42,448 nt of DNA from NCBI GenBank assembly GCA_017882825.1, contig JADGOS010000003.1, positions 1 to 42,448 of the forward strand, read 5' to 3'. A model generated the notes under the pieces. The model saw only the letters and a list, made by a program, of their open reading frames with translations. It made no database searches and was not told the DNA's origin. How positions within the stretch are numbered: position 1 is the stretch's first letter; the number at the start of each line of letters is the position of its first letter. Of this stretch, positions 13,424-38,250 are shown piece by piece. This DNA is from Demequinaceae bacterium (GTDB taxonomy: Bacteria; Actinomycetota; Actinomycetes; Actinomycetales; Demequinaceae). The position numbers and the translations under genes are program-made.

Positions 13424-13448
13424 GGGCCTCAGCCTAGGGGTCCGGTCC

Positions 13449-13454
13449 TCTATA
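13449..13454 (-). promoter_or_regulatory. Candidate -10 (TATAGA on minus strand) of the DUF11 gene
   Basis: tctata at 13449-13454 lies ~26 bp upstream of ATG 13423, with duplicated TTGTCAC elements upstream (13473-13488). Confidence 0.4.
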
Positions 13455-13500
13455 CACCAGCGATGGTGAAGGTTGTCACTTTTGTCACAGCCGCACCAAC

Positions 13501-14694: not shown

Positions 14695-14697
14695 GCC

Positions 14698-15177
14698 CTA
14701 GCCCGTCAGTATCCGCGTGGCTTCGGCGACCGCATCCGCATCCCCCATAACCAGAACTTGGTCTCCCGCCAGGAATTCGAAACTCGGTCCCGGTCCCGGC
14801 ACGGCATGATCCCCGCGGACGACCGCGACGACGGACGCGGATGTGCGCGTGCGGATCTTCCCGTCGGCGATCGTCAGATCGGTGAGCCCGCCGGTTTCCG
14901 GCATCACCACCCAATCGATGGCGAGACCCTCGACATCGTGGCGCAGTTGCTCAAGCCTGACGGTAATGGTGGTGCCGCCGAGGAGCTCGGCGATCGCCGC
15001 GGCATCTCCCTCCGAGAGTTCGATCGTTCCGATGGCGGCGTCGGCGTCTTGGGGGTCATAGATGACGATGTCGCGCGTGCCGTCCCGCCGAATCACGACG
15101 CCCGCGCGGTCACCCGCTTCGGTCGTGAACTCGTACCGGACGCCGATCCCGGGAACCTTGGTCTCGAAGATCTCCAT
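14698..15177 (-). CDS. TrkA-C (RCK_C) domain regulatory subunit, KhtT-like
   Basis: 159 aa; N-term ETKVPGIGVRYEFTTEAGDRAGVVIRRDGTRDIVIYD and C-terminal RCK_C GDHAVPGPGPSFEFLAGDQVLVMGDADAVAEATRIL; immediately upstream of the antiporter. Confidence 0.85.
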   Translation of the reverse strand: MEIFETKVPGIGVRYEFTTEAGDRAGVVIRRDGTRDIVIYDPQDADAAIGTIELSEGDAAAIAELLGGTTITVRLEQLRHDVEGLAIDWVVMPETGGLTDLTIADGKIRTRTSASVVAVVRGDHAVPGPGPSFEFLAGDQVLVMGDADAVAEATRILTG

Positions 15178-21810: not shown

Positions 21811-23009
21811 TGGCCCCCGCGGTTGGGGGGCCCGCGGGCGACCTCACGCTTGAGAGACTCGCAGATATCGTCGACGCCCGGTCGCGCCACTTTCGGCGCA
21901 ACCTGGCGCTCGTCGGTGCCGTCGGCCTCATTGTCGGCGGCGGGTTGGCCACTGCCGGGTTCGCGATCGCTGCCGCGAACACCGGCGGGGCCACCCCCCT
22001 CTCCGTATCGCTTGCCCCCATCGCCGTGGAGCAGCGGGATGTAGATATCTACACGGACTTCGCGGGGACGCTCGGATACGGCGCCACGGTCAGCGTGCGG
22101 TCTCCCGCCTCGGGCGTGGTGACCGCGGTGCCCGCGACCGGCACCGACCTGGCGCGAGGAGCCGTGTTGTTCGCCGTCGACTCGCAACCGGTAGCCCTCC
22201 TGTATGGCGACCTGCCGATCTGGCGGAGCCTCAACTCGAGTTCGAGCAACGGTCCGGACATCCTCCAACTCGAAACAAACCTCGCGGCGCTCGGCTTCAC
22301 CGCGAACGGCCACATGACGGTCGACGATGACTTCACCTATTACACGGGGGTGGCGCTCAAGGCGTGGGAGACCGCGATGGGCTTCTCGAAGCCGGACACC
22401 ACGTTCGACGCGAGCGAGGCCGTCTACTTGCCGGGGAGCGTGAGGGTCGACTCGGTCGTCACGCGCGGGACCGTCGCGACGAACGCGACGGAGGTGCTCA
22501 CCGTTGCCGTAACCGATAACGTGACGGACACCGTCGTTGGTGACCACGGGGTCTCTTCAGCGTCGTCGGCCACCCAGGAAGTCGCATTGCAGGTCACGAC
22601 GACCGATCAGTCGTTGTTCAGCGCCGGACTAGCCGTTCAGGTGGAACTCGCCGACGCGACGACCGTTGCCGGGAAGGTAAGCAGTGTGGGCACCACGGTC
22701 AAGCGCTCGGGCTCCGGTCCCAACAGCACCCTCTACGTTGACGTCTCGGTTGCGATTCCCGACGAACCGGCGGGCGGGCTCATCGAGGGCCCGGTGACGG
22801 TCCACGTGCCGAGCCAGAGCGCGAAGCAGGCGCTCATGGTCCCGGTCCGCGCGCTCGTCGCCCTGGCGGAGGGCGGTTACGCGGTGCAACGCCAGGCAAC
22901 GGACGGAACCCTGAGTTACGTCGGCGTGGAGACCGGCCTGTTCTCCGACGGCTGGGTACAAGTGACAGGCAAGCTCGCAGCGGGCGACATGGTCATGGTG
23001 CCCGCGTGA
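21810..23009 (+). CDS. Efflux adaptor (HlyD/MFP-like) with peptidoglycan-binding-like domain
   Basis: GTG 21810 overlapping the upstream TAG; N-terminal TM, biotinyl-lipoyl-like SVRSPASGVVTAV, ILQLETNLAALGF...AWETAMGF PG_binding_1-like. Confidence 0.83.
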   Translation: MAPAVGGPAGDLTLERLADIVDARSRHFRRNLALVGAVGLIVGGGLATAGFAIAAANTGGATPLSVSLAPIAVEQRDVDIYTDFAGTLGYGATVSVRSPASGVVTAVPATGTDLARGAVLFAVDSQPVALLYGDLPIWRSLNSSSSNGPDILQLETNLAALGFTANGHMTVDDDFTYYTGVALKAWETAMGFSKPDTTFDASEAVYLPGSVRVDSVVTRGTVATNATEVLTVAVTDNVTDTVVGDHGVSSASSATQEVALQVTTTDQSLFSAGLAVQVELADATTVAGKVSSVGTTVKRSGSGPNSTLYVDVSVAIPDEPAGGLIEGPVTVHVPSQSAKQALMVPVRALVALAEGGYAVQRQATDGTLSYVGVETGLFSDGWVQVTGKLAAGDMVMVPA

Positions 23010-23713
23010 GCGCGGGGGTCGCGGTCCTGGAACTGAGTGACGTCGTGAAGGAATACCCCGGGCACCCCCCGGTCCGCGCCCTCGACGGCGTCACGCTCCG
23101 GGTTGATCAGGGGGAACTGGTCGGCGTCGTCGGGCCGTCGGGCTCGGGCAAGTCCACGCTTCTCCACGTCGTCGGCACGCTCGATCGACCGTCCTCCGGG
23201 ATCGTGCGCATCGGCGGGAACGAGGTGTCGGCCCTGTCGGATCGGAGGCTCTCTGCGGCCAGGAGCAGGCTGATCGGCTTCGTCTTTCAGCAGTTCTTCC
23301 TCGTCGAGAGCATGTCGGCGCTCGACAATGTGGCGACCGGGCTCCTGTACACCGGCGCTGGCCCCGTGGAGCGGCGCTACCGCGCCTTCGAGGCGCTGAG
23401 CCGCGTGGGCCTCGCGCACCGCATCGAACACCGACCGACCGAACTGTCCGGCGGCGAGCAACAGCGCGTCGCGATCGCGAGGGCGCTCGTCAATCGCCCG
23501 GCCATCATCCTTGCGGACGAACCGACGGGCAACCTTGATTCCCACACCGGACAAGCAACCATGGACCTGTTCCGCGATCTCCATGCCGAAGGCGCCACGA
23601 TCGTGGTCATCACCCACGATCGCGAACTCGCCGCGACCCTTCCTCGGCAGGTACATATTCGGGACGGTCGCATCGAAAGCGACGAGCGCACGCGTGCGGC
23701 GGTGACGCAATGA
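23006..23713 (+). CDS. ABC transporter ATP-binding protein (LolD/MacB type)
   Basis: Walker A GPSGSGKST, signature LSGGEQQRVAIARAL, Walker B IILADEPTGNLD. Confidence 0.96.
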   Translation: MSAGVAVLELSDVVKEYPGHPPVRALDGVTLRVDQGELVGVVGPSGSGKSTLLHVVGTLDRPSSGIVRIGGNEVSALSDRRLSAARSRLIGFVFQQFFLVESMSALDNVATGLLYTGAGPVERRYRAFEALSRVGLAHRIEHRPTELSGGEQQRVAIARALVNRPAIILADEPTGNLDSHTGQATMDLFRDLHAEGATIVVITHDRELAATLPRQVHIRDGRIESDERTRAAVTQ

Positions 23714-24945
23714 GCGTCATCAGCCCCGCCAAGGCGCGCGGCCCCGAGGCCTCGTACGAGGTCGGCGTGAGCAAGGTCAGGTTCGTCGAGCTCCTGAGGG
23801 CCAGCCTCGGCTCGCTCGGGCAGCGCCCCGTTCGCACAGCGCTCTCGGCGCTCGGCGTCACCATCGGCATCGCCGCCATGGTCGCGGTCCTCGGGCTGAG
23901 CGAGTCGAGCAGGGCCGACCTGCAGGCGCAGATTGCGAACCTAGGAACCAGTCTCTTGACCGTGCAGGCGGGAAGCGGTTTCGGCGCGGGGGATGGGACG
24001 CTGCCAGCGGACGCCTCGACGGCCATTTCCCGCATCGGGCCCATCGAGTCTGTGTCTTCCGTCGTGACGCTGAGCGATACCGTCCTGCGGAACTCCGAGG
24101 TCAACGCACAGGCGACGGGGGGTCTTCAGGCCGCCGCGGTCGACCTCTCGCTCCTCGACACCCTCAATTCCTCGGTGGCGAAGGGTGAATGGCTGAACAA
24201 GGCCACCGCCGACTTCCCCGTGGTGGTCCTGGGCTCGGTCGCCGCACAGCGGCTGGGCATCGCCGACGTTGGCTCGGGCCAGCAGATTCTCATAGGCAAG
24301 ACATGGTTCACCGTGGTCGGCATCCTCAAGCCCTTCCCGCTTGCCGCAGACCTCGACCGCTCGGCCCTCATCGGAATGAATGCCGCGGCCACGTACCTGA
24401 GCGCGGACCTCAATCCGAGCACGGTCTATGTCCTCGCGGATCCCGCATACGTGGACGACGTCCGCAAAGTCCTCGGCGCCACGGCCAACCCCGAGCACCC
24501 GGAGGAGGCGCAGGTGAGCCGGCCTTCTGACGCGCTCCAGGCGCAACTCGCCGCCGACTCGGCATTCACGTCGCTCTTCCTTGGGCTGGGCGCCGTCGCG
24601 CTCCTCGTTGGGGGCGTCGGAATCGCCAACGTGATGGTCATCGGGGTGATGGAGCGCCGCGGCGAGATCGGCCTGCGGCGTGCCCTCGGCGCGACACGGC
24701 GGCATATTCGCGGCCAATTCCTGCTCGAGGCGCTCGCGCTCGCTGGCCTCGGCGGCCTCGTGGGAGTGGGGCTCGGAAGCCTGGTGACGGTGATCTACGC
24801 CCTGAGCCAAGGCTGGGGGGTCGTTCTCCCGGCCGTGGCAATCGTGGGTGGCATCGTCAGCGCCCTCGTCATCGGGGCGGTAGCCGGGCTCTACCCGGCG
24901 GTTCGCGCTTCGCAATTGTCCCCAACGGAAGCCTTGAGGTCCTGA
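23710..24945 (+). CDS. ABC transporter permease (MacB/FtsX type)
   Basis: 411 aa; RTALSALGVTIGIAAMVAVLGLS, VGGVGIANVMVIGVMERRGEIGLRRALGATRRHI. Confidence 0.95.
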   Translation: MSVISPAKARGPEASYEVGVSKVRFVELLRASLGSLGQRPVRTALSALGVTIGIAAMVAVLGLSESSRADLQAQIANLGTSLLTVQAGSGFGAGDGTLPADASTAISRIGPIESVSSVVTLSDTVLRNSEVNAQATGGLQAAAVDLSLLDTLNSSVAKGEWLNKATADFPVVVLGSVAAQRLGIADVGSGQQILIGKTWFTVVGILKPFPLAADLDRSALIGMNAAATYLSADLNPSTVYVLADPAYVDDVRKVLGATANPEHPEEAQVSRPSDALQAQLAADSAFTSLFLGLGAVALLVGGVGIANVMVIGVMERRGEIGLRRALGATRRHIRGQFLLEALALAGLGGLVGVGLGSLVTVIYALSQGWGVVLPAVAIVGGIVSALVIGAVAGLYPAVRASQLSPTEALRS

Positions 24946-24946
24946 C

Positions 24947-26146
24947 ATGCGCGCGCATCTATTCCGGCGAACCGTGGTCGTGGGATCGGCGAGGCGCGCC
25001 TCTGCGCGCCTCGCCGTGGGGGCCGCGGTGGCCGTGGCCGCAGTAGTTCTTGCGTCATGTTCCGCCGCCGACCCTTCCGGCAGCCCCTCGGTCAGTTCCT
25101 CCGTCGGCACCTCCGCTGGCATCCAGACTTCCCCGGTCACGCGTGGCGACCTCTCCGAGTCGATTTCCTTCGCGGGCGTCCTGACGTACGACCACCCGTT
25201 CGACGCGGTCTATCAGAAAACGGTGACCACGACGAAGACGTCGTCGGTCGGAGGGGGCCCCGCCGGGCCGGGGGGCGGAGGAGCGGCGGCCGCGACCACC
25301 AAGACGACCACCGTCACCAGCTCCGCGAGCGGGACCATAACGTGGGTCGCGCCCGCGGCTTCGGTGCTCAAGAGCGGTGACGTCCTCTATCGTGTCGACA
25401 ACGTTCCCGTCGTCTTCGTAGAGGGCGACGGCGTGCTGTGGAGGGACCTCAAGGTTGGCTACACGGGGGACGACGTCCAGGCGGTCGAGAGCGCGCTCGT
25501 CGCGCTCGGCTACGACCCCAGCGGCACGGTCACGATTGACCAGAAGTTCACGTCCTTGTCTCGCTCGATGATCCAGCGATTCGAGGCGGCATACGGGCTT
25601 GCCAAGACCACGTCGTTCCCCTACGCGACCGTCGTCATGCGTCCAAGCGACGCGATCGTGACCGCCATCGCGCTGGCCGTGGGCGACACGGTGACCACCG
25701 GGGCCTCCGTCCTGACGATCAGCGACACCTCCCGAATCGCGACCTTCTCGCTCGCGCCTGCGGATCGCAACAAGATCGCGGTCGGTGACGCGGTGACCAT
25801 GCGTCTTTCCACCGGGAAGAACGTCTCGGGCACCATCGCGTCCATCTCGTCGGGAATTGACGCGACGACGAACGAGTACGACGTCGTCGCCTCGTTCTCC
25901 GAGCCGATCGAGGGTCTCGGCGACAAGGTCGACGTGACGGTCAAGGCATCCGTGCCCCTCGCGATCGGCGCGCTTCTGGTTCCGTCAACCGCGCTCGTGG
26001 TGCGAGACGATGGGACGACGACGGTGAACGTCATCAAGGACGGCGTGGTGGCCGCGGTGGTCGTGACGGTGATCGCGACCGCGGGACAGAACTCCGCGGT
26101 CAGTTCCTCCGATCTTGCCGAGGGCGACGCGGTAGTGGTGACGTGA
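24947..26146 (+). CDS. Second efflux adaptor lipoprotein with peptidoglycan-binding-like domain
   Basis: 399 aa; VVLASCSAAD lipobox, GTITWVAPAASVLKSGDVLYRVDNVPV, DVQAVESALVALGYDPSGTVTIDQKF. Confidence 0.83.
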   Translation: MRAHLFRRTVVVGSARRASARLAVGAAVAVAAVVLASCSAADPSGSPSVSSSVGTSAGIQTSPVTRGDLSESISFAGVLTYDHPFDAVYQKTVTTTKTSSVGGGPAGPGGGGAAAATTKTTTVTSSASGTITWVAPAASVLKSGDVLYRVDNVPVVFVEGDGVLWRDLKVGYTGDDVQAVESALVALGYDPSGTVTIDQKFTSLSRSMIQRFEAAYGLAKTTSFPYATVVMRPSDAIVTAIALAVGDTVTTGASVLTISDTSRIATFSLAPADRNKIAVGDAVTMRLSTGKNVSGTIASISSGIDATTNEYDVVASFSEPIEGLGDKVDVTVKASVPLAIGALLVPSTALVVRDDGTTTVNVIKDGVVAAVVVTVIATAGQNSAVSSSDLAEGDAVVVT

Positions 26147-26171
26147 GATCCTGACGGAGGAGGAGGGCGCC

Positions 26172-26843
26172 ATGCGCGTGCTCGTCGTTGAGGACCATGC
26201 GGCTCTTGCGCGCGAGGTCGCTCTGCGCCTGCGCCGGGAGAGGATGGCCGTCGACGTCGCCGTTGACGGAGCCGAAGCCCTCGCGAAGGTGGACGTCACC
26301 GCGTACGACGTGATCGTGCTCGACCGCGACCTTCCCAAGGTTCACGGCGATGATGTCTGCCGCGCGTTGGTGGCGCGGGAGAGCGCCCCGCGAATCCTCA
26401 TGCTTACCGCCGCACGCGGCATCGGAGACGTCGTGTCTGGCCTCGAACTCGGCGCCGACGACTACCTTCCCAAGCCGTTTGCAATGGTGGAACTGGTCGC
26501 CCGCGTGCGTTCTCTCGCCCGGCGCGCGGCGTCGGTCGTGAGTCCGATCCTGACCGTAGGCGGCCTCGTCGTCGACCCCAACACGCAGATCGTGACGCGC
26601 GACGGACGCTCGATCTCGCTCTCGCCCAAAGAGTTCGCCGTCCTGGAGGTGCTCGCGGCCGCGCCGGGGCGCCTCGTCTCGGCGGAGCACCTGCTCGAGA
26701 AGGTCTGGGACGAGTACACCGATCCGTTCACCAACGCGGTCCGCGTGACGATGGTGACGCTGCGCAGGAAGCTGGGAGAGCCGGGACTGATCTCGACCGT
26801 GAAGGGTCGCGGCTACCGGCTGACCGAAGAGGGGGAAGCGTGA
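26172..26843 (+). CDS. OmpR-family response regulator
   Basis: MRVLVVEDHAALAREVALRLRRE...IVLDRDLPKVHG...LPKPFAMVELVARVR; winged helix. Confidence 0.93.
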   Translation: MRVLVVEDHAALAREVALRLRRERMAVDVAVDGAEALAKVDVTAYDVIVLDRDLPKVHGDDVCRALVARESAPRILMLTAARGIGDVVSGLELGADDYLPKPFAMVELVARVRSLARRAASVVSPILTVGGLVVDPNTQIVTRDGRSISLSPKEFAVLEVLAAAPGRLVSAEHLLEKVWDEYTDPFTNAVRVTMVTLRRKLGEPGLISTVKGRGYRLTEEGEA

Positions 26844-28069
26844 GGCTTACCGTCCGACTCAAGATCACCGCGCTCTTCGCGATTCTCTTCACGGTACTCG
26901 CCGCCGTGCTGGTGGCGACCGCGTACTCGTTCATGGCCGCGAGGACCACGCCAGAGGCCGAGGCCCAGGCCCGGTCGCAGGCCTTCCGGTCCGCGCTAAC
27001 CCATGCGGGCGTGGCTCTTCCCGAGCAGCCGCAACAGTTCCCCGGTGTGGGCCATGGCGGAGACGCAGGTGTGGTCCCCCTTGGTCCCGGGGCGCAGGTG
27101 GAAATCGCGATCCGGGGCGTCGAGGAGCAGGCGCGACAGAACGCGCTCCACGACCTTCTCCGGGTATCGATCCTCGCGTTCCTGATCGTCGCCGTCGTCT
27201 CCGTTGGACTCTCGTGGTGGCTCGCGGGACGCGTCCTGCGGCCGATCAGCGAGGTGATCCGCGAGGCCAGCACGCTCTCGGCCACGAGTCTGTCGAGGCG
27301 GCTGCCCGCGGACGGCCCCGACGACGAGTTCCGGCGCCTCAAGACCGCCTTCAACGGCATGCTTGATCGCCTCGAGTCCGCGTTCGAGGCCCGGCAACGG
27401 TTTGCAGCGGACGCGTCCCACGAACTTCGAACGCCCCTGGCCGTGTTGGGGGCGATGGCGGACAACGTCCTCGACAGCGGCGCGCGCACGCCACGCGCCG
27501 CGAAGGACCTTGCTGTCGAGGTTCGGGAACAGGTGGACCGCTCCGAGTCGCTGGTGGACTCCCTCCTGACCCTCGCGCGGGCGGACGACGTGCGCAACAC
27601 GCGAGAGCGCGTGGACCTGGCCGACGTCGTCGCGGAGGCGGTGAGCGCCGTCGCGGATGCCGCCTCGCGAGCCGGAGTCGCCATCAGCCTCGATTTTTCG
27701 GATGCTCCGACGGAGGGCGACCCCGTCCTGCTGGGGCGCATGGCGTTCAACGCGCTCGACAACGCCGTGAAGTACAACCTTCGTTCCGGCGGCACCATCG
27801 AATGCGCGACCTTCGTCGATGGCGACAACTCGTGTATCAGGGTCGCCAACTCCGGACCCATCGTGGAGGCGGACCAGATCCCTCGCATGTTCGAGCGCTT
27901 TGAGCGTGGCGAGACTCGGACGGAGCGCGACGGCCACGGCCTTGGCCTGCCGATCCTGCGGCGCGTCGCTGAGGCCCACGGGGGCGCGGCGACGGCGTCG
28001 CCGCGCCCCGGCGGCGGGTTCATCGTCACGGTCACCGTGCCGCGATTGCGGGACGCTTCCGGACGCTAG
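26840..28069 (+). CDS. Sensor histidine kinase
   Basis: 409 aa; HAMP, FAADASHELRTPLAVLGAMADN, NALDNAVKYN, GHGLGLPILRRVAEAHGG. Confidence 0.93.
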   Translation: MRLTVRLKITALFAILFTVLAAVLVATAYSFMAARTTPEAEAQARSQAFRSALTHAGVALPEQPQQFPGVGHGGDAGVVPLGPGAQVEIAIRGVEEQARQNALHDLLRVSILAFLIVAVVSVGLSWWLAGRVLRPISEVIREASTLSATSLSRRLPADGPDDEFRRLKTAFNGMLDRLESAFEARQRFAADASHELRTPLAVLGAMADNVLDSGARTPRAAKDLAVEVREQVDRSESLVDSLLTLARADDVRNTRERVDLADVVAEAVSAVADAASRAGVAISLDFSDAPTEGDPVLLGRMAFNALDNAVKYNLRSGGTIECATFVDGDNSCIRVANSGPIVEADQIPRMFERFERGETRTERDGHGLGLPILRRVAEAHGGAATASPRPGGGFIVTVTVPRLRDASGR

Positions 28070-28118: not shown

Positions 28119-28132
28119 GTGACCAAAGTCCC
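28119..28132 (+). promoter_or_regulatory. DosR-like palindromic box upstream of the hydrogenase operon
   Basis: GTGACCAAAGTCCC; 12/14 match to GGGACTWWAGTCCC; centre ~42 bp upstream of a TSS predicted from TACCGT (28156-28161). Confidence 0.5.
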
Positions 28133-28188
28133 CCCCGCTGAGGCGAGGCGAACCTTACCGTGAAATCGGGAGTCACTGGAGGCGGCGA

Positions 28189-29319
28189 ATGACCAGCACC
28201 ACTCGAACCCTCAAAGTCGAGGGCCTGCGGAAGCTCGTCGAGGAACTGCGCGCTCGCGGGTTCACCGTGATCGCCCCCACGGTGCGGGACGGAGCGATCG
28301 TCAACGCGCCCATCGAATCCATCGACCAACTTCCTCGCGGCGTGGGGGACCAGCAGGACGCGGCCCACTACCGGCTCACCGAGCGCGCCGACGGTGCGTA
28401 CTTCGGATACGCCGCCGGTGCGCAGTCGATGAAGCCCGTCCTCTTCCCCGCCGAGGAACTCCTGTGGCGCGGCAAGCGCGACGCCGCTGGTGCATTCACC
28501 GTCCAGCCCGCCTCGAACGAGGGCGGGCCCTACGCGCTGCTCGGCGTTCGCGGGTGCGACCTCAAGGCCATCCACATCCATGACGCGGTTCTCACGAGCC
28601 GAGGCTTCTCGGACGCCCACTACGCCGCCCGACGCGCGGGCGCCCTTCTCATCTCCGTCACCTGCGGCTCGCCCGCCGGGACGTGCTTCTGCGCATCGGT
28701 GGGAACCGGGCCCAGGCCATCGGAGGGCTACGACTTGAGCCTCACCGAGGTCATCAAGGGAAGCTCCCACACGTTCGTCGTGGCGGTCGGTACGGAGCGC
28801 GGCGCGGAGATCATGGACGCGCTCGGGGCCTCGACGGCCTCGGAAGCCGAGATGGCCGCCGCCGACGACATCGCGAAGGACGCCGCCCTCAACATGGGTC
28901 GCGAACTCAACACCGACGGCCTCAAGTACCTGATGTACGCGAACGCCGAGAGTTCGCACTGGGACGACGTCGCGTCGCGGTGCCTCTCCTGCACCAACTG
29001 CACGCTCGTCTGCCCCACCTGCTTCTGCACCTCGGTTGAGGACGTCAGCGACCTGACCGGCCAAGAGGCGTCCCGACACCGGGTCTGGGACTCGTGCTTC
29101 TCCGAGGACTTCTCCTACATCCACGGTGGCAGCGTGCGCGAGAGTCCCCGCTCGCGCTATCGCCAGTGGATCACCCACAAGTTGGCGTCCTGGGAGGACC
29201 AGTTCGGGATGACGGGGTGCGTCGGTTGCGGCCGATGCATCACGTGGTGCCCGGTAGGAATCGACATCACGGCCGAGGCCGCCGCCCTCCGCGGCACCCC
29301 CTCAAAGGCGAGGAAGTAG
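28189..29319 (+). CDS. hydB: Group 3b (sulf)hydrogenase Fe-S subunit, HydB / anaerobic sulfite reductase A-like
   Basis: 376 aa; CxxCxxCxxxCP motifs [16 protein letters not shown] and [26 protein letters not shown]. Confidence 0.87.
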
Positions 29320-29329
29320 GAGAACGCTC

Positions 29330-29803
29330 ATGGGCACCATCACGGAAATCAAGGACTACATGCCGGAGCACCCGTTCTTCAAGGGGCTCGACCCCGATCT
29401 GATCGAGTTCCTCGCCGGGTGCGCGCGCAACGTTCACTTCAAGGAAGGCGAGATCCTCTTCAGGGAGGGTGACAAGGCGGACACGTTCTACGTCATCCGC
29501 AAGGGGCGCGTCGCGATCCAAGTACACAACCCGGCCGGCGGAGGCATGATCTTCGACACGGCCGACGCTGGCGACGTCGTCGGTTGGACGTGGCTCGTGC
29601 CGCCGTACAAGTGGGTCTTCGACGCCTCCGCGTCCGAGGAAACGAGCGCCGTCGCCTTCGACGGCGAGTGCCTCCGCGGAAAGTGCGAAGCGGACCCGGC
29701 GGTGGGATACGCGCTCATGAATCGGGTCATGCTCGTGATGTACGACCGGCTCCAGGCGGCGCGGATGCGTCTTCTGGACTTGTACGGGACGGTGGGTAGC
29801 TGA
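29330..29803 (+). CDS. Cyclic-nucleotide-binding-domain protein, no DNA-binding domain
   Basis: 157 aa; FKEGEILFREGDKADTFYVIRKGRVAIQV cNMP-binding fold; no HTH after the dimer helix. Confidence 0.85.
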   Translation: MGTITEIKDYMPEHPFFKGLDPDLIEFLAGCARNVHFKEGEILFREGDKADTFYVIRKGRVAIQVHNPAGGGMIFDTADAGDVVGWTWLVPPYKWVFDASASEETSAVAFDGECLRGKCEADPAVGYALMNRVMLVMYDRLQAARMRLLDLYGTVGS

Positions 29804-29804
29804 G

Positions 29805-30662
29805 GTGACGTCGACGGTTTCCAGGAGCGGCGCCGTCGCGGCCGACCCGATGGTGCCGCGGACCTTCACCCTGCTCTCAACCCATGCGGACACGCGCGAC
29901 ACCTTCACGCTTGAACTGGAGCCGACCGACGGCGTGCGGCTCGAGTTCAGGGCGGGTCAGTTCACCATGCTCAGCGCGTTCGGCATCGGCGAGGTTCCCA
30001 TCTCCATCAGCGGGAGCCCCATCGAGGACGGTCCGCTGATCCACACGATCCGTAGCGTCGGCGGCGTCTCGAACGCTATCGTGACTTCGGCGCCGGGGAC
30101 CCAGCTCGGCGTGCGCGGCCCGTTCGGAACCAGCTGGGATGTCACCGACGCCAAGGGCGGCGACGTCGTCATCATCACAGGCGGCATCGGACTCGCGCCG
30201 CTCCGACCCGCAATCCTGGAACTTCTCGCCGAGCGCGACCAGTACAATCGCGTCGTGCTCCTCTACGGGGCCCGCACCCCCGAGGACATCCTCTTTGGCG
30301 ACGAGATGCGCAAGTGGGCCGATCGCCTCGGCATGACCGTCGAGGTCACCGTCGACAACGGTCCCCACGGGTGGAAGGGTCGGGTCGGATTCGTGACCCA
30401 GCTCATTTCTCGCGCGAGTTTCGATCCCGCCCAGACCATCGCGCTCGTCTGCGGCCCCGAGGTGATGATGCGCGCCTCGGCAAATGAGTTGCGTCAGCGC
30501 GGCGTCCCTGCGGGGAAGATCCGCCTTTCGATGGAGCGGAACATGAAGTGCGGCATCGGTCTATGCGGACACTGCCAACTTCGCGAGCACTTCATTTGCG
30601 CGGATGGCCCCATCCTCACCTACGAGGTCCTCGCCCCCCTGATGCAGAAGTGGGAGCTCTGA
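29805..30662 (+). CDS. hydG: FAD/NAD(P)-binding hydrogenase subunit (HydG type)
   Basis: GTG 29805; [61 protein letters not shown] [2Fe-2S]. Confidence 0.9.
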
Positions 30663-30663
30663 C

Positions 30664-31476
30664 ATGCCCGACGCACCCCTTCCCAAACTCGCGGTCTGGA
30701 AGTTCTCGTCGTGCGACGGCTGCCAGTTGTCGCTCCTGAACTGCGAGGACGAACTCCTGTCGATCGTCGGGGCCGTCCACATCGCGTACTTCCCCGAGGC
30801 GACGCGGGCGGTCGTCGAGGGTCCGTACGACATCTCGCTCGTCGAGGGTTCGGTCACCACGCCGGAGGACGCCGAGCGCATCCACGAGATCCGCGCGGAG
30901 TCCAAGCTCGTGGTGACCATCGGAGCGTGCGCGACGGCGGGCGGCATCCAGGCGCTCCGCAACTGGGGCGACATCGAGCAGTACCGATCGATCGTCTACG
31001 CGCACCCCGAGTACCTCTCGACCCTGGCAACGTCGACCGCGATCGGTGACCACATCAACGTCGACTTCGAGCTGCGCGGCTGCCCCATCGACAAGTACCA
31101 GTTGATCGAGGTGCTTGCCTCCCACCTCCAGGGCCGCAGGCCCCGCATCCCCACCTACTCCGTGTGCGTGGAATGCAAGCGCAAGGGCAACATCTGCGTC
31201 CCGGTCGCGAACGGGACGCCGTGCCTCGGACCCGTCACGCAGGCCGGGTGCGGCGCGCTGTGCCCGTCGTTCGCGCGGGGGTGCTACGGGTGCTTCGGCC
31301 CGCAGGACAGCCCGAACGCGCCCGCGCTCTCCGACCAGTTGATCGAACTCGGCATGACCAATGACGATGTCATTCGCGTCTACCGGACGTTCAACGCCGA
31401 GGCGGACGCCTTCCGCGCAGAGTCCAACCGCCTCCAGGCGTTGCCAGGGCCGTCCAAGCAGGGAGCCGCGAAATGA
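30664..31476 (+). CDS. hydD: [NiFe] hydrogenase small subunit (HydD type)
   Basis: 270 aa; [93 protein letters not shown]. Confidence 0.93.
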
Positions 31477-32777
31477 CGCACCAACTCAAGGATGGCAGCC
31501 AGGTCCTCCAGGTAGGCATGCTCGCCCGCGTCGAGGGCGAGGGCGGCATGCACATCGAGATCAAGGACGGCGTGGTCGAGTCGGTCAAGCTCAACATCTT
31601 TGAACCCCCCCGCTTCTACGAGGCGTTCCTGCGCGGGCGCAAGTACACCGAGCCGCCGGACATCACGGCGCGCATTTGCGGGATCTGTCCCGTCGCGTAC
31701 CAGTCGGCGTCGACCGAGGCGATCGAGGCCATCGCTGGCGCCGTCACGACGCCGGAGATCCAGGCGATGCGTCGCCTCCTGTATTGCGGGGAGTGGATCG
31801 AAAGCCACTCGCTCCACATCTTCATGCTTCACGCCCCGGACTTCCTCGGCTACGACAGCGTCATCGAGATGGCCGCCGACTACGGCCCCGTCGTCGAGAT
31901 GGCGCTGCGGCTGAAGAAGGCGGGCAACGACCTCATGGAGCTCGTCGGCGGGCGCGCGATCCATCCGGTGAACGTCAAGGTGGGCGGGTTCTACCGCATG
32001 CCCACCAAGGCCCAGATGCTCGCGCTCCGCCCCGCCCTGGAGCGCGGGCTCGAGGAAGCGTTCGAGACGGTCAAGCTGGTCTCGACCTTCGACTTCCCCG
32101 ACATGGAGCAACCATACGAGTACGTCGCGCTTCGTCACCCGGACTACTACGCGATCGAGCGCGGGACGGTCGTGTCGACCTCGGGCGTCACCTTCCCAGT
32201 CAGCGAATTCCCCAAGCACATCAAGGAATTCCACGTGGAGCACTCGAACGCGCTCCACGCGAAGTTCGACGACACGATGTACATGGTCGGGCCGCTCGCG
32301 CGCTACACGCTGAACTTCCACCAGTTGAGTGATCGTTGCAAGGAGGCCGCACTCGCGGCGGGCCTGGGCGAGACGTGCCGCAACCAGTTCAAGTCCATTA
32401 TCGTTCGCGCGGTCGAACTCGCCTACGCCTTCGAGGAGGCGTTGCGCATCATCGACGGATGGAAGGACGGTGCGGCGCCCTCCGTGCCGGTTGGCCCCGC
32501 GAAGGGCGAGGGGATGGGGGCGTCCGAGGCGCCGCGCGGAATCATCTTCCACCGATACGTCACGGACGAGAACGGCATCATCGAGGACGCCCAAATCGTC
32601 CCTCCAACGTCCCAGAACCAGCCGAGCATCGAGCTCGACCTCAAGACGGCAGCCCAGAAGTGGGTGGACATGGACGACCACGCCCTTACCCACCTGTGCG
32701 AGCACGCGATCCGCAACTACGACCCGTGCATCTCGTGCGCGACCCACTTCCTCGATCTCAGGATCAAGAGGTCATGA
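31473..32777 (+). CDS. hydA: [NiFe] hydrogenase large subunit (HydA type)
   Basis: 434 aa; [30 protein letters not shown]-terminal [18 protein letters not shown]. Confidence 0.96.
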
Positions 32778-33280
32778 CCGACCAGGCCGCGCCGCGCGGC
32801 GGGCCGCTCGTGGTCGGCCTCGGTAGTCCCGACCAGGGCGACGACGCCGTCGGACTCGAGATCGCCCGGGCCGTCGAGGCCCTGGGCCTTCCGGGAGTGT
32901 GCACGGCAATTCACGAGGATCCGACCGCCCTCCTGCACCTGTGGGAAGGGTTCGACGTCGTGGTCGTCGTCGACGCCGTCATGACGGGGAGGCCCCCGGG
33001 CGCCATCACGGTGATCGAGGTTGGCGCCGGAAAGGCGCAACTCCCGCCCGAGGCGTGGGCCGCGACCGGTCGCGGCGGGACTCACGCCTTCGGGCTCGCG
33101 ACGGCCGTCGAGCTCGCGCGCGTCCTTGGGCGGCTTCCGCGACGCGTCACGGTCGTGGGGATCGAGGCCGCCTCCTTTGCTCAGGGCACGGCGCTGAGCC
33201 CGGAGGTCGCCGCCTCCGTCGACGACGCCGTGGCGATCGTCGGGGCGGTCGCGCGGGACAGAGTGAGGAGTGTCGCCTGA
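32774..33280 (+). CDS. Hydrogenase maturation protease
   Basis: 168 aa from ATG 32774; VVGLGSPDQGDDAVGLEIARAVE, VVVVDAVMTGRPPGAI, GTHAFGLATAVELARVLG. Confidence 0.92.
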   Translation: MTDQAAPRGGPLVVGLGSPDQGDDAVGLEIARAVEALGLPGVCTAIHEDPTALLHLWEGFDVVVVVDAVMTGRPPGAITVIEVGAGKAQLPPEAWAATGRGGTHAFGLATAVELARVLGRLPRRVTVVGIEAASFAQGTALSPEVAASVDDAVAIVGAVARDRVRSVA

Positions 33281-33516
33281 TGTGCCTCGGCGAGATCTGT
33301 GAGGTCACCGAGATTCGCCCCGGGGGCCGCGCGCTGGTCCGGGGAGACCGGCGCGAGCAAGAGGTGCTCCTCATGACGATCAGCGGCAACGTGGCGCCGG
33401 GAGACTGGCTGGTGTGTCACTCCGGTTTCGCCCTCGATCGCGTCTCTGCGGATGAGGCGCGCGAGGCGCTCGCGATTCGTTCCACCCCATCAACCCAGAC
33501 GGAGGTCTCACCATGA
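33280..33516 (+). CDS. hypC: HypC/HupF-type hydrogenase maturation chaperone
   Basis: 78 aa from ATG 33280 (TGATG overlap): MCLGEICEVTEI...GDWLVCHSGFALDRVSADEA. Confidence 0.88.
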   Translation: MCLGEICEVTEIRPGGRALVRGDRREQEVLLMTISGNVAPGDWLVCHSGFALDRVSADEAREALAIRSTPSTQTEVSP

Positions 33517-34448
33517 CACATTCCCGCCGAACAGGACTCCTGCTGGCGCTCGCTACGGCGTGCATCAGCGGCGTCTCGATCTTCGTCAACTCCAACGGGG
33601 TGAAGGCCTACGGAAGCGCCGCGGTGTACACCACGGCCAAGAACATCGCGGCCGCGATTATCCTCGGCGCGATCGTCGCCGTCGGGACGCGACACGGGAC
33701 GCGCCTCTCCCGGCCCACGAGCCGCGGCCAGTGGGCGACCCTCGCCGCCGTCGCCGTGATCGGCGGCAGCGTGCCCTTCGTTCTCTTCTTTGAGGGCCTC
33801 GCTCGCGCGACCGCCACGCAGGCGGCATTCCTCCACAAGAGCCTGGTGATCTGGGTGGCGATCCTCGCCGTGGTCGTGCTTCGGGAGAAGTTGTCTTGGG
33901 TCCACTACGCCGCTATCGCGCTCCTGATCGCCGGCCAGATCGGACTCAACGGCGGCCTGGCTGGCCTCCTCGCCGTCTTCACGGATTCGGGCGCGATGAT
34001 GGTGCTCGGCGCGACCCTGCTCTGGTCGGTGGAGGTCATCATCTCCAAGCGGGTGCTCGCCGACGTCACCCCCTGGACGCTGTCCATCGCGCGCATGGGT
34101 GGTGGCGCCGTGGTGCTCGTGGCGTGGTCGGCCATCACCGGGACGATCGGGAAGATCGTGCCCTCCTCGTCGTCGCAGTGGGGCTGGGTGGCCGTCACCG
34201 GCGTCCTCCTCGCGGCGTACGTGGCGACCTGGCATAACGCGCTCGCCCGCGCTCAGGCCGTCGACGTGACCGCCGTTCTCGTCGCGGGCGCACTCATCAC
34301 CGCCCTCCTTTCGGGAGCCTTCAAGGGGGTGAGCCTTGCGCCGAATCTTCCGTGGAATGGCCTGATTCTCGCCGGCACCGTGATGCTCGCGGTGCAGATG
34401 TGGCGCGCGCGTCCCGCGCCGCGGCTGACCGCGGGGTGTTCTGCGTAG
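33513..34448 (+). CDS. EamA/DMT-family transporter
   Basis: 311 aa, ~10 TM; ATG overlaps the hypC stop (ATGA). Confidence 0.85.
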   Translation: MTHSRRTGLLLALATACISGVSIFVNSNGVKAYGSAAVYTTAKNIAAAIILGAIVAVGTRHGTRLSRPTSRGQWATLAAVAVIGGSVPFVLFFEGLARATATQAAFLHKSLVIWVAILAVVVLREKLSWVHYAAIALLIAGQIGLNGGLAGLLAVFTDSGAMMVLGATLLWSVEVIISKRVLADVTPWTLSIARMGGGAVVLVAWSAITGTIGKIVPSSSSQWGWVAVTGVLLAAYVATWHNALARAQAVDVTAVLVAGALITALLSGAFKGVSLAPNLPWNGLILAGTVMLAVQMWRARPAPRLTAGCSA

Positions 34449-34457
34449 GGCGGGGTC

Positions 34458-35219
34458 ATGGTCGACGGAGTCCTCCTCTTCAGCAGGTACGCGTACCCAC
34501 CGAACGAACTTGGCTATTGCGGGCCCGACCGGCCGCAGCAGTTGCTCGAGCAGGTCTCGGCGGGAGCGTCCGACGACGGGCTCCGACAACTGGCGAAGGG
34601 TTTCGAGGGCGCGTGGCCCTACCTCGAGCTCATTGCAGCCTCGGCGGGAATCGCCGATCCGCTCGACGAGCGCGTGGTCGAGGCCTACTGGGTGGGCAAT
34701 CATCTGCTGGACGGCGTGGGCCCGCGACTCATGGGCGACTCGCTCGAGGCGCGCTTCAAGAAGCGGGCGGCCGGATCATGGAATCACCTCGCCGAGGCGG
34801 TGCCCGCCGGCGCCGTTCCGCATCACAGCTTCCACGTGTTCGCCGTCTACCCGTGGCTCGGGTTGCTTCGGGAGGGGCGCCTCGACGAGCCGCTCCGGGT
34901 CCTCGATCGCTGCAGGATTAGATGGGGGCAGGTCGTGGAGGTCGTCGGCGAGGAGGCCCTCGTTCGTTCGCGGCGCCTCGAGTGGGACGGGCGGAAGCTC
35001 ACCCTCGGCGAATCCTGCGTCGAGCGCGTCCTCGTGGGCCTCGACGGTCTCGGCCTCGCCGGAAACCTCGTGCCGGGCGACTGGTGCTCGCTCCACTGGG
35101 ACTGGGTGTGCGAGCGTCTCGTCGAACGTCGCCTCAAGGCGTTGCGCGACTACACGCTCCGGCAACTGGCGATGGTCAACGGGCTGTCCCACCCCGCGCC
35201 CTCGTCGGTCCTGTCGTAG
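34458..35219 (+). CDS. Uncharacterised protein resembling DUF6390
   Basis: 253 aa; SRYAYPPNELGYCGPDR, EAYWVGNHLL, PHHSFHVFAVYPWLGLLREG, PLRVLDRCRIRWGQV; family recognition from memory. Confidence 0.65.
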   Translation: MVDGVLLFSRYAYPPNELGYCGPDRPQQLLEQVSAGASDDGLRQLAKGFEGAWPYLELIAASAGIADPLDERVVEAYWVGNHLLDGVGPRLMGDSLEARFKKRAAGSWNHLAEAVPAGAVPHHSFHVFAVYPWLGLLREGRLDEPLRVLDRCRIRWGQVVEVVGEEALVRSRRLEWDGRKLTLGESCVERVLVGLDGLGLAGNLVPGDWCSLHWDWVCERLVERRLKALRDYTLRQLAMVNGLSHPAPSSVLS

Positions 35220-35240
35220 GGTGCTCCCGCCGCGGAAAGA

Positions 35241-35274
35241 CGTCAGCCCGGCGCGGGGGGGCGCCGGGCTGACG
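35241..35274. terminator. Strong 14-bp perfect stem-loop terminator between convergent operons
   Basis: CGTCAGCCCGGCGC-GGGGGG-GCGCCGGGCTGACG. Confidence 0.75.
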
Positions 35275-35344
35275 GTACGGGCGGCGTCTAGCGCTGCGCC
35301 CGCCCGCAAGGCGGGATGGGGGGATGCCCTGCGGGAGTCTTGAG

Positions 35345-35869
35345 CTAGATGAACAGGACCTGAGCCCCGTCCGTCATTTCGATGAAATCGGCGGCCGTGA
35401 TGATTCCTTCCACGTCCTCGCGAAGATCCTTCATCGTGAGCTTGTTCATGTCGGCGCTCATCTTGCAGCCCCACAGGTGGCCGCCCGATGCGCTGATCTG
35501 ATCAAGGAAGTCGGGGACCTCGGGCACCTGAAGCTTGTTGATCTCGTGCTGGAGGTACCACGTCGCGAACGGTTGCATCCCGGGAATCCACGCGAGCCAC
35601 TGGGGCATGCGGATCCCTCCGATCGGCAGGTGCATCGCGAAGTTCCCGACGGGGCTGAACTTCAGCTTCTTCTGACGCTTCTTGTGGATCATGTCGAAGC
35701 CCCAGAAGGTGAAGAACAAGTGAACCTCCACGCCCTCGCCGAGAGCGGCGTTGCCAAGGATGAGGCCCGGGTACGCCATGTCGAGGTTGCCCTTGGAGCA
35801 GATGATCGCCATCTTGCGGCCCGTGGACTCGCTTCCGAAGTTCGGGACGATGGGCTGGGTGTTGGCCAT
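35345..35869 (-). CDS. DsrE/DsrF-like family protein (DsrE2-like)
   Basis: 174 aa; KMAIICSKGNLDMAYPGLILGNAALGEGVEVHLFFTFWG...GGHLWGCKMSADM. Confidence 0.87.
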   Translation of the reverse strand: MANTQPIVPNFGSESTGRKMAIICSKGNLDMAYPGLILGNAALGEGVEVHLFFTFWGFDMIHKKRQKKLKFSPVGNFAMHLPIGGIRMPQWLAWIPGMQPFATWYLQHEINKLQVPEVPDFLDQISASGGHLWGCKMSADMNKLTMKDLREDVEGIITAADFIEMTDGAQVLFI

Positions 35870-35889
35870 GATTCAGTCCTCTCCGCGTC

Positions 35890-36204
35890 CTAGACGCAGC
35901 CGGCGGGCTTGGGGAGCCCAGCGATGTATGCCATCTTCTTGGCGGGCTTCGCCGGGAAGAGCTGGAACTGGAGCTTCACGGGGAATCCGCCAACGGCGTC
36001 GACGCGCCGCGTGGTTGCCGTCGTGCCCTGGCTCTTGTAGTCGGTGCGCAGGAACGTGATGACCTTCCAGTGCTCGTCGGTCATCGCGACGCCGATGTTC
36101 TTGGCGAGTTCGGCGCCCAGCTTCTCGTCCCATTCGTCGTACTCGGTGAGGAAGCCCTCGTCGTCGACGTGGACCTCGCGTCCGAGCATGTCTTGGGTTG
36201 GCAT
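35890..36204 (-). CDS. DsrC/TusE family sulfur carrier protein, single-Cys
   Basis: 104 aa; DDEGFLTEYDEWDEKLGAELAKNIGVAMTDEHWKVITFLR...YIAGLPKPAGCV. Confidence 0.92.
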   Translation of the reverse strand: MPTQDMLGREVHVDDEGFLTEYDEWDEKLGAELAKNIGVAMTDEHWKVITFLRTDYKSQGTTATTRRVDAVGGFPVKLQFQLFPAKPAKKMAYIAGLPKPAGCV

Positions 36205-36230
36205 GACTCATTCCTTTCTTCGAGCGGCGG

Positions 36231-37475
36231 TTAGTTACCAGCGGGGCGCCGCTTGCCTCGCATGGACATATAGGGGGAGATGGGGATGTAGCGACCGGGG
36301 AGCAGGAGCCACCAGTAGACGAACCGGAAGGCGAGTTTGCCGAGGTGGTTCAGGCGCGTCTCCTTGAGAAGGCGCATGGGGCCAAGGACGGGAATCGGGA
36401 AGGAGCCGGGCAGGGGCTCGACGTCATAGCTGAAGTCAATGAGCAGACCCTTGCCGTGTCCGGACTCGACGAAGCACGTTGCGTGCCCGTCGAACTTGTG
36501 GGTCATCTCCTTGCCGGCGATGAGCTGGAGGAAGTTCTTGGGGAAGAGGTCGAGCTCGTAATGCGCGACGGCGCCAGCCTTGGAGGTGGGGGCGTTCGTC
36601 GCGTCCCCGACGGCGAAGACGTTCGCGAACTTCGTTGACTGGAGCGTCTCCTTGTTGACGCTGACGAAGTTGAGTTCGTCGCCGAGGCCCGAACGGCCGA
36701 TGAAGTCCGCGCCCATGTTGAGCGGGATCGTCACCAGCAGGTCGAACGGGATCTCCCGCTCGTCGTAGGAGAAGATCGCCTTGGCGTCCTCGTCTACTCG
36801 CTCGATGATGTAGTCCGGCTCGACGGTGATCCTCCTCTTGCCGAGCATGTCACCGAGCGCCGCGGCCGCGACGGGCTTGGTGAACGCCCCCGGAAGCGGG
36901 GTCACGTACGTCATCTGGACCTTGTCGCGGATTCCGCGCTTGGTGAAGTACGCCTCGGCGAGGAAGGCAATCTCGAGCGGCGCGACGGGGCACTTGATCG
37001 GCATCTCGGTCACGTGGACCACGACCTTGCCGCCCTCGAACTTCTCGAGTTTGTCGCGGAGCGCGAGCGCGTCGGCGTACGTGTAGAAGGAATGGACGCT
37101 GTCGTGCCAAAGCTTGCCGTCCATCCCGGGCGTCTGGTCGGGACGCGGCGTGGTGCCGGTCGCGATCACGAGGTAGTCGTAGGCGAGGACGGTGCCATCG
37201 GTGAGGACGACGACGTTCTCCGCGGGCTTGACGTCCTGAACGGCCGCCTTGACGAGGTTCACGCCCCTCGGGATGAGTTTCGCGAGCGGCCTGCCAACCT
37301 TCTTTGGCGTGTACATGCCGACTGCGAGGAACAGATATCCGGGCTGGTAGTCGTGGGTGTCGGCCGGGTCGACGACCGTGATCTCCCACTCGGAGCGCGG
37401 AAGCTTCTTCCTGAGCTTGTTGACGGTGATGACTCCGGCCGTGCCGGCACCGATGACGAGCAGCCTGCGCATCAT
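36231..37475 (-). CDS. Sulfide:quinone oxidoreductase-like FAD-dependent oxidoreductase
   Basis: 414 aa; LLVIGAGTAGVITVNKL, DYLVIATGTTPRPDQTPG, MPIKCPVAPLEIAFL, ANVFAVGDATNAPTSKAGAVAH, GHATCFVESGHGKGLLIDFSY. Confidence 0.87.
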   Translation of the reverse strand: MMRRLLVIGAGTAGVITVNKLRKKLPRSEWEITVVDPADTHDYQPGYLFLAVGMYTPKKVGRPLAKLIPRGVNLVKAAVQDVKPAENVVVLTDGTVLAYDYLVIATGTTPRPDQTPGMDGKLWHDSVHSFYTYADALALRDKLEKFEGGKVVVHVTEMPIKCPVAPLEIAFLAEAYFTKRGIRDKVQMTYVTPLPGAFTKPVAAAALGDMLGKRRITVEPDYIIERVDEDAKAIFSYDEREIPFDLLVTIPLNMGADFIGRSGLGDELNFVSVNKETLQSTKFANVFAVGDATNAPTSKAGAVAHYELDLFPKNFLQLIAGKEMTHKFDGHATCFVESGHGKGLLIDFSYDVEPLPGSFPIPVLGPMRLLKETRLNHLGKLAFRFVYWWLLLPGRYIPISPYMSMRGKRRPAGN

Positions 37476-38206
37476 TCGCTCCTAGTGGTGGGTTCGGGTC
37501 GCGAAGCGACACGGGAGAGGCTCGCCGCGACGCGGGGCAGCGCGGCGAGCACGACGGCGCGGTCCGCGGCCGTCAGGTGGTACAGGCCATCCGAGACGTC
37601 TCGAGATCCTGCGGGGAGAACGTCGCCGGGGGCAACTCCGCCCGCGAGGACCATCCCGACAAGTTGGTTGCCCTCGCGCACGAGCGCGCGCGCACATTCG
37701 AATCCATGGGGGCCGACGCGGAACGTCGGCGCGAACGCCTGCTCGTTCGCGAGTGCGCGCCAGTCCTTGAGGCACGCCTCGAGGACGGCCGGGTCATCCT
37801 GGCGCTCGGCAAACCACGCGCACGGGTTCGCGACCTCCGAGGCCGGGTTGCCCTCCATATCGGTGACGACCATCATCACTCCCAGGAGTTCGGCGGCGAG
37901 GTCCACGAGCGGCTGGAGGCGCGGCGCGTCGGCACCGGAGAGGATTCCGGTGGACGGTGTACGCGGACCCGCCGCGGCGGACGACAACTCGATCCCCGCG
38001 CCTTCCAGCAGTCCGCGGATGGGCCCGGCGGGAAACCTCCACTGGCGACCGACCTTGATCGCCGGGAGCCTTCCGTCCTGAGCCATTCGGTAGACGGTGG
38101 ACTTGTCGATCCCCAACAGGGACTCGACGTCCTCGGCGGACATGAGGTCCGCCCCGCCCTGCTCCTGCATAATCCTCATACCATGCAGACTATGCATCAG
38201 AGCCAT
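37472..38206 (-). CDS. HTH (excisionase-like) plus PocR-type ligand-sensing domain regulator
   Basis: MSAEDVESLLGIDKSTVYRMAQDGRLPAIKVGRQWRFP DNA-binding module; PocR-like region PLVDLAAELLGVMMVVTDMEGNPASEVANPCAWF...CLKDWRAL...FRVGPHGFECARALV. Likely true start 38179 or 38143, not 38206. Confidence 0.75.
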   Translation of the reverse strand: MALMHSLHGMRIMQEQGGADLMSAEDVESLLGIDKSTVYRMAQDGRLPAIKVGRQWRFPAGPIRGLLEGAGIELSSAAAGPRTPSTGILSGADAPRLQPLVDLAAELLGVMMVVTDMEGNPASEVANPCAWFAERQDDPAVLEACLKDWRALANEQAFAPTFRVGPHGFECARALVREGNQLVGMVLAGGVAPGDVLPAGSRDVSDGLYHLTAADRAVVLAALPRVAASLSRVASRPEPTTRSE

Positions 38207-38250
38207 CGCGGGGCCGGGACCAAGGTCCCCGCCTGCCTCTCATGCAGACT
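38182..38250. repeat. 10-bp direct repeat CATGCAGACT flanking the DosR-like box
   Basis: Copies at 38182-38191 and 38241-38250. Confidence 0.8.
38216..38229. promoter_or_regulatory. DosR-like perfect-arm palindrome upstream of the sulfur operon
   Basis: GGGACC-AA-GGTCCC; 12/14 match to GGGACTWWAGTCCC; candidate minus-strand -10 TAGTCT at 38187-38192. Confidence 0.5.

Follow-up and report, generated by a model that had tools for sequence, protein, structure and literature searches.

Why does a hydrogenase operon meet a sulfide-oxidation operon tail to tail in an actinobacterium, and is there anything beyond position that ties the two together? The question is raised by contig JADGOS010000003.1 of a Demequinaceae bacterium (assembly GCA_017882825.1), the whole 42,448 nucleotides of which were analysed and are called the window here. 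On its forward strand lies an operon for a group 3b-like [NiFe] hydrogenase (28189-35219); facing it on the reverse strand (38206-35345) is an operon for a PocR-type regulator, a sulfide:quinone oxidoreductase (SQR), a DsrC/TusE-family protein and a DsrE2-like protein. The original prediction, made from the letters of the DNA, saw in them a single composite H2/sulfur locus, in which a persulfide relay would exchange sulfur with the hydrogenase. Our answer is a different one. Comparison with related genomes makes it probable that each operon is transcribed on its own and that both belong to a single DosRS-type low-oxygen regulon.

The source genome is a draft (1.81 Mb, 95% complete, 177 contigs) and belongs to a genus within the same family as Demequina. 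The latter, being the nearest genus with many genomes, was used as the main comparison set.

A promoter box common to both operons

Both operons are preceded by a DosR-type box (Table 1). The two boxes carry the half-site pattern GGGAC-N4-GTCCC of the published DosR motif, TTSGGGACTWWAGTCCCSAA (PMC2275270), and they coincide with both ends of the interval 28119-38229 that the original prediction had marked. The box in front of the sulfur operon is one of only two exact GGGACSWWSGTCCC sites in the genome; the other precedes a flavodoxin gene. Within the window by itself there are 4 box matches against 1.5 expected, which is of weak significance, and hence the case rests on conservation.

This conservation is considerable in Demequina. 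The box is found at -72/-71 from hydB in 16 of 17 loci, where it is the main conserved block amid diverged sequence (the 17 are those in which hydB was found, three hydB starts being outside the sequence stretches examined), and at -95 to -99 upstream of SQR in 8 of 8. If the window is included and one mismatch is allowed, 17 of 18 hydB genes and 9 of 9 SQR operons have the box, the means in dinucleotide shuffles being 0.25 and 0.26 respectively. A weight matrix built from the hydB boxes alone also picks out boxes upstream of SQR in other families, with p <= 0.013 (loci L041, L034, L035, L142, L071, L042, L146 and L032). As a control, hydB upstream regions of group 3b loci from outside the Actinomycetota gave 0 of 33 at p < 0.05, compared with 5 of 30 within that phylum. 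Exact boxes outnumber matches to a reversed-pattern control, by 2 to 0 in the window's genome, by 10 to 1, 9 to 1, 7 to 0 and 6 to 0 in four Demequina genomes, and by 5 to 10 against 0-1 across several. Directly downstream of these boxes are, among others, cydA, flavodoxin, sucC, hydB and SQR genes. DosRS-type regulons are recognized by just such a pattern, situated at a conserved position upstream of their targets.

The box also precedes genes for a pyruvate:ferredoxin oxidoreductase and for a DUF4914 protein (L224 of genome G001, L220 of genome G005), hinting at a wider fermentation regulon under the same box.

What might bind the box? Mycobacterium tuberculosis DosR, whose sequence was checked against PDB 3c3w, was used as the query. 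It has orthologue-level matches in the order-mate G110 and others (53-58% identical), and matches of 39-45% identity in Demequina, where the recognition helix of the DosR-like protein reads AEKTVKNHVT, compared with AEKTVKNYVS in DosR. The window's own genome encodes a regulator with the same AEKTVKNHVT helix (G000:C1:18326-18910), 88% identical to that of its genus-mate. On the same contig, C1 (L240 2763-10943), this regulator lies tail to tail with a cydA-cydB-cydD-cydC-kinase cluster, with profile checks made on cydA, cydB, one ATP-binding cassette (ABC) gene and the kinase; the arrangement is similar in G001 and G020. This kinase combines two GAF domains with HisKA_3, and among solved structures DosT and DevS are nearest to it. 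A histidine before Pro-Pro, which we take to be the heme ligand in GAF kinases of this type, aligns with that of DosT and DevS, and by this alignment the kinase would belong with them. Judged by sequence, a complete DosRS-like system is present, tied to cytochrome bd.

Two similar systems are known. In mycobacteria, the DosRS/DevRS dormancy regulon has the same GGGAC-N4-GTCCC box, a GAF heme-type kinase, a NarL-type regulator and a low-oxygen logic that involves cytochrome bd. A group 3b hydrogenase is among its targets: Hyh of M. smegmatis belongs to the dos regulon (PMC8125079) and is induced at low O2 (PMC2799521). What differs here is that the regulator pair sits beside cydABDC, that the regulator is only about 40% identical to DosR, and that the predicted targets include an SQR-TusE-DsrE2 operon. 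The other system, OsdKR of Streptomyces coelicolor (PMC5069765), is a DosR-like one with a palindromic site outside mycobacteria, its consensus being AGGGCCGATCGGCCCT, while the box here is GGGACCAAGGTCCC. DosR control of a group 3b hydrogenase is thus already known; the SQR-TusE-DsrE2 module in that regulon appears to be new, and no paper joining dosR, sulfide quinone and hydrogenase was found in the library that we searched.

Several observations weigh against placing both operons in one such regulon. In G001, a sister species from the same genus that has SQR and no HydA, the SQR operon is not preceded by the box. The cydA gene of the window's own genome has no box within one mismatch, and the hydB of one Demequina genome (G019) has none within 300 bp upstream, which we count as a weak point. 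Compared with M. tuberculosis DosR, the regulator of the window's genome falls short of E = 1e-40, and those of Demequina reach only the identities given above; because this similarity is limited, the DosR-like protein is the presumed binder of the box. The co-occurrence statistics presented below ignore phylogeny. Finally, only 23 bp lie between the box before the sulfur operon and the annotated ATG of pocR, which is too close unless translation starts internally. That start is uncertain, and the true one may be the ATG at 38143, where the conserved helix-turn-helix (HTH) begins and from which the box is ~86 bp away.

A probable link by regulation rather than adjacency

The linkage seen in the window is rarely found elsewhere. 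HydA and SQR are neighbours in the window and never in 59 relatives: in one Demequina genome (G009) a single contig holds both at a distance of more than 1 Mb, and in other relatives they are on different contigs. The original prediction called for a neighbourhood survey of group 3b loci. In our survey of 80 such loci, with flanks of up to 10 kb, the full sulfur set turned up once, in Lentzea waywayandensis (L071), where it is ~7 kb off and on the opposite strand; the group 3b loci nearest to that of the window are never linked to SQR. In G110, pocR and SQR come 157 bp after hydBGDA in the same orientation, and the contig ends there. When family f15 was searched for further linked cases, both genes were found in G110 only. 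Together, this survey and the Demequina genomes rule out that the linked H2/sulfur locus is conserved as a syntenic unit.

The window itself argues for two units. Because a perfect 14-bp hairpin sits between the hydrogenase and sulfur operons, they are most likely transcribed separately. It is probably a bidirectional terminator, though not a classical intrinsic one, as the T-tail is missing. Co-transcription of the two operons was considered and is unlikely, since they converge on this hairpin. Yet the promoter box is common to both operons even in genomes where they are unlinked, so that regulation, and not adjacency, is the link. The original prediction held that independent expression of the two operons would count against it; judged by the promoter evidence, namely the common box, they would not be expressed independently.

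Could the operons nevertheless be chance neighbours, that is, two independent accessory operons adjacent here, whose common boxes merely reflect the many genes in a hypoxia regulon? The lack of linkage in Demequina and in G001 would suit this explanation. So would the small numbers behind the linkage statistic: the two genes are linked in 2 of the 19 genomes holding both (p = 0.007 against random placement), and without the window this becomes 1 of 18 (p = 0.11). However, with exact boxes numbering 2 to 10 in a genome the regulon is a small one, and membership of both operons in it is a functional link in itself. Furthermore, SQR is nested inside HydA in Demequina, all 8 genomes with SQR being among the 20 of 34 that have HydA (Fisher p = 0.007). 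In the order sample (n=297), 9 genomes have both genes where 1.3 are expected, and in the phylum sample (n=317) 8 have both where 3.8 are expected, figures that, like the preceding one, are not corrected for phylogeny. With co-occurrence above chance and a common box where the modules are unlinked, the functional tie proposed in the original prediction is supported, and mere chance seems to us unlikely.

The relay is a different matter. Here DsrE2 and DsrC would carry persulfide made by SQR towards the group 3b hydrogenase or away from it; the enzyme would work as a sulfhydrogenase, and NADPH/H2 would be coupled to sulfane sulfur. Adjacency in the window, the arrangement in G110, co-occurrence of HydA and SQR in excess of expectation and the presence of sulfhydrogenase I among the best relatives of HydA would all fit. 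But the full sulfur set is within 10 kb in just the one surveyed locus, the modules are unlinked in nearly all other genomes that have both, many genomes have the SQR-DsrC-DsrE2 core but no group 3b hydrogenase, and against the sulfhydrogenase models of NCBIfam the hydrogenase of the window scores far under the equivalog cut-offs. This part of the original prediction thus found no backing here, and we consider it distinctly improbable, although by textbook analogy a direct exchange of persulfide with the hydrogenase would be possible. Slimmer still are the chances of an internal hypoxic sulfur shuttle, in which the hydrogenase would reduce sulfane sulfur to sulfide with NADPH or H2, DsrE2 and DsrC would carry persulfide, and SQR would oxidise that sulfide again, feeding menaquinone and the bd oxidase. 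Cytosolic NADPH would in this way reach the respiratory chain by a DosR-controlled path that does not involve complex I. It is also possible to imagine that the PocR-type regulator, rather than a DosR-like one, coordinates both operons. Its gene is the first of the sulfur operon, and three conserved cysteines would suit sulfur or redox sensing. Nevertheless, we find this very hard to credit, since pocR is not beside SQR in Demequina and its likely ATGCA repeats, which lie where the pocR gene begins in seven genomes, are not seen before the hydB of the window.

Returning to a low-oxygen regulon that includes both operons, we can suggest how it might work. Once O2 is released from the presumed heme-GAF kinase, or NO or CO binds to it, the DosR-like regulator would be activated and would bind the boxes before hydB and pocR-SQR, with hypoxic induction of both operons as the presumed outcome. 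It may also switch on the cytochrome bd genes, which in Demequina have the box in front of them. NADPH would then be balanced against H2 by the group 3b hydrogenase. In parallel, SQR would oxidise sulfide via its Cys162/Cys334 pair, and its electrons would presumably flow to menaquinone and from there to bd oxidase. The sulfane sulfur would be removed by the DsrE2-like and single-Cys DsrC/TusE proteins, which may hand persulfide over towards some final sulfur acceptor. The PocR regulator would add a second, local layer of control on the sulfur operon. Direct sulfur exchange with the hydrogenase would not be required.

If correct, this would extend the low-oxygen (dormancy-type) regulon past mycobacteria and Streptomyces to Demequina and its relatives, and sulfide oxidation with persulfide carriers is predicted to be part of it. 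H2S would then be, beside cytochrome bd, a regulated respiratory electron source in hypoxic aerobic actinobacteria, or else a toxin to clear. A function and a regulator would also be proposed for the widespread and apparently uncharacterised SQR-TusE-DsrE2 cassette, a key residue of which is selenocysteine (Sec) in one lineage.

Genes of the two operons and other features of the window

Profile searches found every gene that the original prediction had named, in the order and on the strands given, and the gene overlaps also agree: ATGA joins hydD to hydA, hydA to the protease gene, hypC to the DMT gene and pocR to SQR, while TGATG joins the protease gene to hypC.

Table 1. Positions in the window of the two operons, their boxes and related features
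Feature	Positions	Strand	Evidence
DosR-type box GTGACCAAAGTCCC	28119..28132	+	70 bp 5' of hydB start; 1 mismatch to GGGACYWWRGTCCC
hydB, Fe-S beta subunit of group 3b hydrogenase	28189..29319	+	NCBIfam sulfhyd_HydB 8e-40 (under equivalog cut-off), Fer4_22
Cyclic nucleotide (cNMP)-binding-domain protein without HTH	29330..29803	+	PF00027 5e-15
hydG, NAD(P)/FAD gamma subunit	29805..30662	+	PF00175, PF10418; PRK08345 7e-54
hydD, small subunit	30664..31476	+	NCBIfam HydD 1e-49
hydA, [NiFe] large subunit, group 3b-like	31473..32777	+	phmmer 4e-77 to cytosolic/sulfhydrogenase I alpha
Hydrogenase maturation protease	32774..33280	+	TIGR00072 1e-26, HycI
hypC chaperone	33280..33516	+	PF01455 1e-13
EamA/DMT transporter	33513..34448	+	PF00892; after hypC in Demequina too
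DUF6390 protein	34458..35219	+	PF19927 3e-98
Perfect inverted repeat of 14 bp separating the two operons, probably a bidirectional terminator	35241..35274	.	Fold z = -3.5; no T-tail
DsrE2-like persulfide carrier (predicted), Cys24 and Cys135	35345..35869	-	PF13686 2e-28; NF047629 95 bits, cut-off 210
DsrC/TusE-family protein, 104 aa, single penultimate Cys103	35890..36204	-	TIGR03342 78.9 > 53.5 bits; PF04358 4e-29
Type III-like SQR, Cys162 and Cys334	36231..37475	-	NF049943 596.6 > 525 bits; phmmer 6e-53 to human SQOR
HTH_17 and PocR-sensor regulator	37472..38206	-	PF12728 3e-12, PF10114 1.5e-7
ATGCA/TGCAT repeats over regulator 5' end, possible autoregulatory operator	38165..38200	-	Like repeats at pocR start in six other genomes
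DosR-type box GGGACCTTGGTCCC (= GGGACCAAGGTCCC) upstream of pocR-SQR operon	38216..38229	-	Exact match

The SQR passes the curated cut-off of NCBIfam NF049943, which describes the selenoprotein subtype of type III SQR, and its alignment with human SQOR spans its length. Cys162 and Cys334 are its sole cysteines, and both align with SQOR cysteines, as would be expected of the two redox positions. In seven genomes (L159-L165) of one distant actinobacterial family, f41, the column of Cys334 is TGA (Sec), within the motif DGHATUF, in agreement with the HxxU motif that PMC13188914 gives for the selenoprotein family. Such a swap of Cys and Sec exactly at position 334 is good evidence that the residue is catalytic. 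The SQR of the window thus shares its two catalytic positions with the NF049943 selenoproteins, but is the Cys form, outside the selenoprotein subtype, and is linked to DsrC and DsrE2. The latter two are not adjacent to most of the predicted selenoprotein SQR genes of L159-L165; in nearly all of the non-selenoprotein loci examined, SQR, DsrC and DsrE2 are grouped.

By score and by its penultimate cysteine, the DsrC protein belongs to the DsrC/TusE/DsvC family, and it has exactly one Cys, as the original prediction stated. The CysB position is never Cys, either in this protein or in the Actinomycetota homologues beside SQR-DsrE2, which places it outside DsrC sensu stricto; nor is it a TusE equivalog, with 61 bits against the cut-off of 191 for PRK11508. 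An overlapping open reading frame (ORF) of 112 aa (35873-36211) was tried as the DsrC gene and matched no family; the 104-aa frame is the correct one. The label DsrE2-like stands at the level of the Pfam DrsE_2 superfamily (PF13686) and fails at that of the DsrE2 equivalog (NF047629), the cut-off of which is missed. Its two cysteine positions are mostly conserved. The pair resembles the DsrEFH-DsrC relay of Allochromatium (PMC3397948) and TusE in having a DsrE-fold carrier and a DsrC-fold acceptor with a penultimate Cys. Unlike that relay, it has no CysB in DsrC, a DsrE2-like protein instead of DsrEFH and no dsrAB alongside, and it is coupled to SQR.

The three cysteines of the regulator (129, 145 and 171) are kept in 6 of 6 homologues, which suggests that its PocR domain may be a metal, heme or thiol sensor. 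Its gene is beside SQR in some lineages only. The ATGCA repeats at pocR starts, found in seven genomes including that of the window, are perhaps a tandem-repeat operator of this regulator.

As to the hydrogenase, the original prediction of a group 3b-like enzyme agrees with the phmmer search, in which the best solved relatives of HydA are the alpha subunits of cytosolic hydrogenase and sulfhydrogenase I. Its nickel-ligand CxxC pairs (L1 C69/C72 and L2 C419/C422) are invariant in the alignment, and the four-subunit BGDA set is present, with an Fe-S HydB and a FAD/NAD(P) HydG. In subunits and active-site Cys pairs it is thus like the NADP(H)-linked group 3b hydrogenase/sulfhydrogenase I of Pyrococcus, from which it differs in its scores below the NCBIfam equivalog cut-offs. 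Contig C124 of the same genome carries a second PF00374 match, not resolved into a hydrogenase.

The stand-alone cNMP-binding protein between hydB and hydG (29330-29803) has a homologue in 53 of the 80 group 3b loci, across phyla. The EamA transporter and DUF6390 genes (33513-35219) trail the hydrogenase genes in several lineages, DUF6390 being found in 8 of the 80 loci, and this suggests a hydrogenase-linked role for DUF6390. In L. waywayandensis (L071 11872-12198), a ribosome-hibernation-type S30AE protein is encoded between the hydrogenase and SQR operons. Three tandem DsrC-like matches are found immediately 5' of a group 3b hydB in Candidatus Zixiibacteriota (L135 5263-6300, DSEQ01000025.1); this association of DsrC with a hydrogenase is a separate case from another phylum.

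In the window as a whole, no Rfam families or tRNAs were matched. No sigma-70-type promoters or T-tailed terminators were found either, as is expected since the host is an actinobacterium of 68% GC. Directly 5' of the hydrogenase operon (23006-28069) are genes for a MacB-type ABC exporter, an HlyD-like protein and an OmpR-type two-component system. Further away, an ORF of 2864 aa on the reverse strand (6320-14914) contains seven DUF11 repeats and an MG10-like stretch, and its product is probably a very large surface protein.

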